Source: Pseudonocardiaceae bacterium YIM PH 21723 (lineage in GTDB: Bacteria; Actinomycetota; Actinomycetes; Mycobacteriales; Pseudonocardiaceae). Taken from it: a stretch of DNA of 64,000 nucleotides. Position numbers and translations under genes: made by a program. This document shows positions 12,493 to 19,955 of this stretch, piece after piece; position 1 is the first letter of the stretch; each line of letters starts with the position of its first letter. The stretch covers positions 1 to 64,000 of the forward strand of contig QZFT01000047.1 in the NCBI GenBank assembly GCA_003600225.1, given 5' to 3'. The notes beneath the pieces are model-generated. The model had not been told where the DNA came from, ran no database searches, and worked only from the letters and a program-made list of their open reading frames with translations.

Positions 12493-12617
12493 CGACGCTC
12501 GATCCTTCCGGTCACCGACACCCGGAACGGGGATACCCAGTCCGCCTACTGGTCATGCCTTCCTGGTTACCGGCCTCACACCCATTGCCGGACTGAGTTC
12601 TGCGAGCTAACCTTGTG

Positions 12618-12662
12618 AGGCGGACGCTCCCGATAACCCCCAGGTCGGTTGAGCGTCCGCCT
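12618..12662 (+). ncRNA. Hairpin with conserved loop, copy 1
   Basis: A 12-bp perfect stem (12618-12629 with 12651-12662) encloses a 21-nt loop, CCGATAACCCCCAGGTCGG plus two bases, which can itself pair CCGA with TCGG. A T-rich tract (CCTTTTATTTT) follows on the plus strand, so it could end a short plus-strand transcript that starts opposite the response-regulator gene. The same loop on a different stem occurs at 19844-19882. Whether it acts as RNA or DNA is not known. Confidence 0.5.
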
Positions 12663-12680
12663 TTTATTTTCCTGGCGGTC

Positions 12681-12729
12681 CCGAAGTTGACGAGTTTCGG
12701 GAAGAGCACCCGAAACTCGTCAACTTCGG
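12681..12729 (-). terminator. Palindrome overlapping the amidohydrolase stop codon (CCGAAGTTGACGA family)
   Basis: Perfect 21-bp arms (12681-12701, 12709-12729) with a 7-nt loop. The TGA of the amidohydrolase gene (12720-12722) lies inside the arm. Arms and the GGGACCG flank match the hairpin after ehuA. There is no T-run on the minus strand, so termination is probable only by analogy. Confidence 0.55.
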
Positions 12730-19802: not shown

Positions 19803-19843
19803 AGCAGCCGATGTGAACGCAGCGAGGTGGCAGAATTAAAGAC

Positions 19844-19882
19844 GTCGCGCTCGACCGACCTGGGGGTTATCGGGAGCGCGAC
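19844..19882 (-). ncRNA. Hairpin with conserved loop, copy 2
   Basis: On the minus strand, GTCGCGCTC pairs with GAGCGCGAC around the loop CCGATAACCCCCAGGTCGG plus TC. The loop matches 20 of 21 positions of the hairpin at 12618-12662, while the stem differs by compensating changes. It lies 74 bp after the glycosyltransferase stop and is followed by a T-rich stretch, so it may end that transcript. Confidence 0.5.
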
Positions 19883-19955
19883 GCCCTGCAATCGTAGCTC
19901 AGCTTTTGGAGCTAGTCCAGAAATCGGACTCGTTCGGTCCGTTCCCAGCCCACCT

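Follow-up and report, generated by a model that had tools for sequence, protein, structure and literature searches.

Hairpins with a conserved C-rich loop: apparently a family of roughly 50-nucleotide RNA genes in Pseudonocardiaceae

Introduction

What kind of element keeps its loop unchanged while the two sides of its stem change together? The question is raised by two hairpins in the window, by which we mean the whole stretch of DNA analysed here, 64,000 nucleotides from Pseudonocardiaceae bacterium YIM PH 21723 (contig QZFT01000047.1). A preliminary description placed them at 12618-12662 and 19844-19882, with no strand given for the second; both are real, and lie at 12619-12661 on the plus strand (copy 1) and at 19842-19884 on the minus strand (copy 2). 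Pseudonocardiaceae make erythromycin, rifamycin and vancomycin-type antibiotics and, to our knowledge, few of their regulatory RNAs have been characterised. Here, we find that the hairpins apparently belong to a family of roughly 50-nt RNA genes in Pseudonocardiaceae that is new to the literature, and that pairing of the loop with its complement, CUGGGGGU, at the ribosome-binding sites of target mRNAs is a likely, though unproven, mode of action.

Results

Copies 1 and 2 carry the same 19-nt core, for which shuffles of the window average 0.03 matches at up to three mismatches. Both fold stably on their own strands, copy 1 at -31.6 kcal/mol (z -7.0 vs shuffles) and copy 2 at -30.8 kcal/mol (z -5.1 vs shuffles), and the stem pairs that differ between them do change jointly, as had been claimed, the differences being compensatory. 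Copy 1 is built from an 11-bp outer stem, a 2-nt 3' bulge, a 5-bp inner stem and a 9-nt loop. The features of both copies are as follows, scored where applicable with the covariance model R1 introduced below:

12585-12590, plus strand: putative -35-like hexamer TTGCCG of copy 1, read by eye from the sequence; its spacing to the -10 box is 17 nt
12608-12613, plus strand: putative -10 box TAACCT of copy 1; 53 of the 57 single-hairpin copies have TANNNT here, against 0.6% for control positions
12619-12661, plus strand: predicted hairpin RNA, copy 1, 43 nt; R1 65.5 bits, E 7e-16; fold z -7.0
12636-12643, plus strand: loop seed ACCCCCAG in copy 1, without change in all 12 seed copies and present in 65 of 67 strong copies; proposed pairing site
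12662-12670, plus strand: T-rich tail TTTTATTTT of copy 1, putative terminator; T content 5.1/14 after hairpins vs 2.4 in the control
19832-19841, minus strand: T-rich tail CTTTAATTCT of copy 2, from the sequence and the T-content test of tails
19842-19884, minus strand: predicted hairpin RNA, copy 2, 43 nt; R1 70.0 bits, E 2.6e-17; fold z -5.1
19860-19867, minus strand: loop seed ACCCCCAG in copy 2, without change in all 12 seed copies and present in 65 of 67 strong copies
19891-19896, minus strand: putative -10 box TACGAT of copy 2, from the sequence and the TANNNT position test
19914-19919, minus strand: putative -35-like hexamer TGGACT of copy 2, a weak match read by eye; its spacing to the -10 box is 17 nt

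A search for tRNA and tmRNA gave neither for the two window hairpins. We note separately that positions 12681-12729, directly downstream of copy 1, form a perfect 21-bp inverted repeat with a 7-nt loop; it overlaps the 3' end of a convergent amidohydrolase frame and is perhaps the terminator of that gene.

A 19-mer search of the whole 7.6-Mb source genome (up to three mismatches) returned 25 sites, 12 of them hairpins of this kind, and from these 12 copies (the seed set; 11 distinct) R1 was built. The model finds 13 copies at 60 bits or more in this genome, against which the original count of two proves too low, together with two weak matches of 30.8 and 24.1 bits. The former is a shortened variant of the hairpin with the same loop (L147 2001-2033, or G000:C25:68243-68275), perhaps a degenerate or a distinct member. 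Lack of further copies, or loop copies without paired stems, had been named as evidence that would speak against a structured element. Further copies were found, as just described; loop copies without stems do exist, at about chance level, since among the 18 TRACCCCCAGG sites of the genome 12 are strong hairpin copies, one is the shortened variant (C25:68243) and five are unmatched by the model (C21:66150, C32:55494, C45:55176, C57:219280 and C90:76767), while a backward control pattern gives two sites. On its other strand, C90:76767 is the complementary start site of a candidate target gene (see below).

The 43-nt consensus reads N7-GCTC-CCRRT-RACCCCCAG-GYYGG-TY-GAGC-N7. The seed set has standard pairs in all 176 cells, and 9 of its 16 pairs have changed on both sides; the covarying parts are the outer stem and the central pairs of the inner stem, and ACCCCCAGG is invariant in all 12 copies. 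The loop originally described as fixed is therefore fixed in part: the constant portion is ACCCCCAGG, and the remainder belongs to a covarying inner stem (CCGA/TCGG, CCGG/CTGG, CCAA/TTGG). Alignment A3, comprising 67 strong matches (50 distinct) from 66 sources, has 98.5% standard pair cells, both-side changes in 11 of 16 pairs, and a covariation score of 0.485, compared with 0.158 for shuffles and at most 0.095 for slid structures, figures that lean towards the model because the alignment was fitted to it; the seed set aligned gap-free by MAFFT gives the same picture. ACCCCCAGG is found in 62 of the 67 strong copies and ACCCCCAG in 65. The covariance model and covariation test that had been proposed at the outset have thus returned strong covariation as well as further copies.

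The hairpin is widespread in one family. In a first draw, 33 of 35 other genomes of the same family had a strong copy, compared with 0 of 24 genomes from other families of the same order, four of which gave weak matches of at most 30.4 bits. Among 200 family genomes (at least 90% complete), 170 matched at E up to 1e-6, covering 40 of 44 genera; among the 20 misses listed, all fall in genera g3, g5, g59 and g64. The source genome, with its 13 copies, has the most of all 200, the other RNA-bearing genomes having one to six each. A draw of 296 genomes across the class, which may not include Streptomyces, gave at E 1e-4 the source genome, one family member and a single 32.8-bit match, and thus no strong match outside the family; ACCCCCAGG and its complement are absent from the 251 bases read around that 32.8-bit match. 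The same-order and class-wide searches were run with Infernal's stricter filters. Finally, a scan of named sequences matched at least 115 stretches, and among the 80 matches listed all are from genera that we take to be Pseudonocardiaceae, except four from Actinopolyspora, which has its own family in NCBI. As the named matches are mostly Pseudonocardiaceae, we infer that the searched family, f1, is Pseudonocardiaceae.

The strong copies occur in two forms. We treated 57 of the 67 as single-hairpin, by eye, including both window copies, while 10 copies in five genomes (G005, G011, G012, G024, G034) have a second hairpin, GTCCACC-YGACCCCCAGG-GGTGGAC, 6-10 nt upstream and with the same loop. Across these upstream hairpins and that of the weak-scoring L115, 77 of 77 cells are paired and four of seven pairs have changed on both sides, each such change being one cell in the divergent L115 row. 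L115 and L114/L117 have related outer stems with different loops, and a hairpin with loop AACCCCCAG comes before L115, which shows sub-threshold similarity to Pseudomon-1/ErsA; it is possible that L115 and L114/L117 are further subfamilies.

Genes were called by a simple codon-position method in 42 loci, namely 29 best copies of the 33 RNA-bearing relatives and the 13 copies of the source genome. We defined a shared neighbourhood as the ABC-ATPase cluster plus one of three other clusters, and this is present in 27 loci (the core copies): 26 of the 29 best copies from relatives, and copy C45:45059 of the source genome. The other 12 copies of the source genome, including both window copies, lie outside it. 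Of the 29 relatives, 19 have alanine dehydrogenase within 3.5 kb, and in 12 it is the next gene, in convergent orientation, the assignment resting on Pfam (PF05222/PF01262) in the source genome and on blastp clustering in relatives; the ABC-transporter genes were named by eye from sequence. On the upstream side, the closest called gene has a divergent orientation in 24 of the 26 core copies of relatives. The next downstream gene runs in the direction of the RNA in 10 of these 26 and in 6 of the 13 source-genome copies, and is convergent in the remaining 16 and 7, the latter including both window copies and the source genome's core copy. Copy 1 is flanked by a divergent response-regulator gene and a convergent amidohydrolase gene, and copy 2, which lies 71 nt past the stop of an upstream same-strand glycosyltransferase gene (EryCIII-like C-terminal domain), faces a convergent DUF6545 gene. 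Of the 31 occurrences of AAGGGGGA in the relatives' loci, 14 are followed by a coding ATG at a distance of 3-9 nt; this is possibly the start site that orthologues of a single gene in the shared neighbourhood have in common.

The copies are accompanied by signals at both ends. Of the 57 single-hairpin copies (identical rows kept), 53 have a TANNNT box whose end lies 5-10 nt ahead of the stem, the exceptions being L090, L143, L144 and L145. The same test averages 0.6% at other upstream offsets, with a maximum of 5.3%, and gives 0 of 57 for the opposite strand. Among two-hairpin copies, such a -10 box precedes the upstream hairpin (hairpin A) in 10 of 10. The 14 nt after the hairpin contain 5.1 T on average over the 67 copies, compared with 2.4 at control positions and 3.2 on the opposite strand, the tails of some copies being poor in T. 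In the 27 core copies, the stem is preceded by G in 26 and followed by C in 27, which makes it one pair longer. Taken together, the box before the stem and the T-rich tail suggest an RNA that starts at the stem base and ends just past the stem, about 45-55 nt in all, and the copies look like complete tiny genes consisting of a promoter and then a terminator-like hairpin.

We then asked where the loop complement, CUGGGGGU, occurs. In the source genome, CTGGGGGT-N2-11-RTG is found 120 times, compared with 56 for the backward pattern, and the narrower CTGGGGGT-N4-7-ATG gives 34 sites, compared with 8 for the backward control. Some of the CTGGGGGT sites make convincing gene starts, including two that are neighbours on C24. 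As these had been chosen by pattern, we took a separate sample of 1.26 Mb of the source genome, made up of the window and of 60 stretches of 20 kb, in consecutive tiles, from five contigs. The tiles were not picked by site, but some of the contigs had already been found to contain sites. When the 8-mers that occur four or more times at 4-9 nt upstream of ATG in this sample are ranked, ACTGGGGG comes first and CTGGGGGT fourth, the top-ranked words standing among ordinary Shine-Dalgarno words. CTGGGGGT lies 4-7 nt before a coding ATG in 7 of 69 occurrences, compared with 54 of 1686 for other XXGGGGGX words (Fisher p 0.009; 1.26 Mb) and 14 of 384 for other NNGGGGGT words (p 0.028), in tests made after the first site list had been seen; the seven sites are slightly generous, as the genome total of 34 leads one to expect about 5.6, and part of the enrichment may be ordinary, GGGGGU being itself an acceptable Shine-Dalgarno variant.

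Statistical support for this enrichment comes from the source genome alone. Its site excess of 26 is the largest of the 200 family genomes (next 17). Across these 200, the number of RNA copies shows no correlation with the surplus of complementary start sites (Spearman 0.08, p 0.25), and no difference was found between genomes that have the RNA and those that lack it (4.0 and 2.4 excess sites per genome; p 0.49 per Mb). Nor is CTGGGGGT enriched at starts in 1.6 Mb of mostly relatives' DNA (4 of 269 vs 95 of 3297 for all G5 words), where the total of 269 includes the hairpins' own reverse complements. Separately, a genome of the same order but another family, G053, which has no RNA match, contains 43 CTGGGGGT-N4-7-ATG sites that are mostly one repeated string, and lends the mechanism no support; the string, CTGGGGGTCGACGATG, is repeated many times and may be a dispersed repeat or a gene family with a fixed start region.

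Ten candidate target proteins were compared with Pfam, which names three of them (a peptidase inhibitor I36, a peptidase M48 and a BTAD-type regulator); judged by eye, most of the rest look like small proteins that are secreted or sit in the membrane. For one candidate, the C90 gene in L357, the match to the loop extends over 11 nt. For seven candidates, selected for their match to the loop, the computed duplex with the loop has -17.5 to -20.4 kcal/mol, compared with -9.6 to -13.7 kcal/mol for the 16S tail.

Discussion

The claim that selection acts on an RNA structure whose loop is read in trans fits the covariation, the same-strand -10 box and T-rich tail, and the conservation across the family; as to whether the reader is a protein or an RNA, which the preliminary description had left undivided, there are now statistical hints of an RNA partner, at G-rich ribosome-binding sites. 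The structure and its covariation, the promoter-like box, the tail, the conservation throughout the family and the neighbourhood that one copy shares are all shown by computation; we infer expression, exact ends, pairing and repression along the following lines. Each hairpin would be an independent gene for a very short RNA, transcribed from the stem base by way of a promoter of the housekeeping-sigma type, with RNA polymerase stopping in the T-rich stretch directly after the stem. The product would be one terminator hairpin of about 45-55 nt (two hairpins in some genomes) showing the loop RACCCCCAG, and this loop could act as a seed that pairs in trans with CUGGGGGU in or adjoining the Shine-Dalgarno region of target mRNAs and blocks their translation, as with the terminator loop of the mycobacterial 6C/B11 sRNA.

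That the hairpin copies are RNA genes is, judging from their sequences, near certain. The whole explanation, in which independent 6C/B11-like sRNA genes act by pairing of the loop with CUGGGGGU at ribosome-binding sites, we consider moderately probable. A bolder extension is tentative and rather doubtful: the RNA may be a minimal regulator in which the terminator is the whole molecule and the loop imitates the 16S anti-Shine-Dalgarno sequence (ACCCCC vs ACCUCC, the latter being the 16S sequence), and in this lineage the 13 RNA genes may have expanded as a dosage-controlled regulon together with the CUGGGGGU start sites, which exceed the control by 26 and in several cases belong to small proteins of the membrane or secreted type.

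The main rival, which we hold to be unlikely, is that an RNA-binding protein binds the constant loop on a variable stem, the RNA serving as ligand or decoy and its copy number setting the titration. Retention of ACCCCCAG in 65 of 67 copies while stems vary freely is what one conserved protein would lead us to expect, the same loop is doubled in the two-hairpin form, and RNA copies and complementary start sites show no link across the family; the enrichment of the loop complement at start codons of the source genome, however, is not predicted by such a protein. It is improbable that the copies are only intrinsic terminators with a conserved loop, of the TRIT kind, ending other transcripts. The stable GC hairpin followed by a U tract is present on average over the 67 copies (weak in some), the glycosyltransferase stop lies on the same strand close before copy 2, and the nearest called upstream gene is same-strand in 6 of the 13 source-genome copies, but a terminator that ends an upstream gene should have no start of its own, whereas here the -10 box precedes 53 of 57 stems, with none on the other strand, and the upstream gene runs divergently at copy 1, as the nearest one called does at 24 of the 26 core copies from relatives.

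Hardly probable, too, is that these are divergent members of the known 6C RNA family. The best two-hairpin members do align to RF01066 at 33.9 and 30.7 bits, and the GACCCCC loops are similar; these scores are below the gathering score of 47, the 6C trait of two hairpins that both have C-rich loops is missing in 57 of 67 strong copies (the other 10 having their second hairpin upstream), the loops of the seed copies have five C and then A where canonical 6C RNAs of relatives have six C or more, and canonical 6C is a separate gene in the source genome (G000:C32:94123-94194, L168; 70.2 bits), exceeding the cut-off in 33 of the 41 genomes that were searched. A role as 5' leader or attenuator, with the hairpin at the start of a longer transcript into the downstream gene, would suit the copies whose downstream gene runs in the same direction (10 of 26 and 6 of 13), but at the others, both window copies and the source genome's core copy among them, the next gene is convergent, and gene clustering revealed no common downstream gene among the non-core copies of the source genome; we find this very improbable. 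We give no more credence to a mobile or repeat element, a REP/MITE-like hairpin spreading by transposition: 13 copies in one genome and one to six in the others would suit it, yet copies of such elements are near-identical including their flanks, whereas here stems and flanks differ by eye between the source genome's copies while loop and promoter spacing are kept, and the neighbourhood of the best copy is preserved in 26 of 29 relatives.

The explanation by independent sRNA genes is directly testable, given a family found in 170 of 200 genomes with a kept seed and, for one copy, a shared neighbourhood. If true, it would carry C-rich-loop regulation beyond 6C/B11, perhaps in the simplest possible sRNA gene, a promoter plus a terminator hairpin.

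Comparison with known systems

The initial statement that no named family has this loop holds for Rfam 15 at curated thresholds, with 6C RNA as the nearest analogue. At the gathering threshold, no Rfam family matched the two window hairpins; relaxed searches of ten loci gave chance-like matches together with sub-threshold 6C and Pseudomon-1 over two-hairpin loci, and RF01066 matched neither in the window nor over the hairpins of five single-hairpin loci (E up to 5). The loop as an exact string led, among the matches listed, to unrelated literature throughout. The TRIT/RNIE terminator motif of M. tuberculosis, attributed to Gardner in 2011, is reportedly a conserved hairpin with a U tail. Excerpts of PMC3526491 name this motif; likened by description only, it differs from the new RNA, which has a promoter-like box directly before the hairpin. 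The accessible portions of the literature on C-rich-loop, terminator and Pseudonocardiaceae sRNAs do not describe the RNA, and it may figure as an unnamed transcript in the S. erythraea supplements (PMC3827479, PMC3610266). Public S. erythraea reads belong to both studies, GSE48887 to PMC3827479 and GSE39722 to PMC3610266, the latter study having sequenced RNA of 15-50 nt.

Closer analogues are C-rich-loop sRNAs of other actinobacteria. Streptomyces scr5583 and scr1434 are, according to the excerpted text of PMC3765725, highly expressed sRNAs with a C-rich loop, and we liken the new RNA to them by description only, as likewise actinobacterial and C-rich in its loop. For B11 of M. marinum, the terminator's C-rich loop is stated, in the part of PMC12395582 available to us, to pair with G tracts adjoining ribosome-binding sites, and an excerpt of PMC10470900 reports that either of the two loops of B11 is enough to repress one reporter in M. 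abscessus. Like 6C/B11, as portrayed in that part of PMC12395582, the new RNA is short, actinobacterial and C-rich in its hairpin loops, one of which sits in the terminator hairpin; unlike 6C/B11, it has no Rfam match at threshold, usually consists of one hairpin with the loop RACCCCCAG, and occurs as several paralogues in some genomes.
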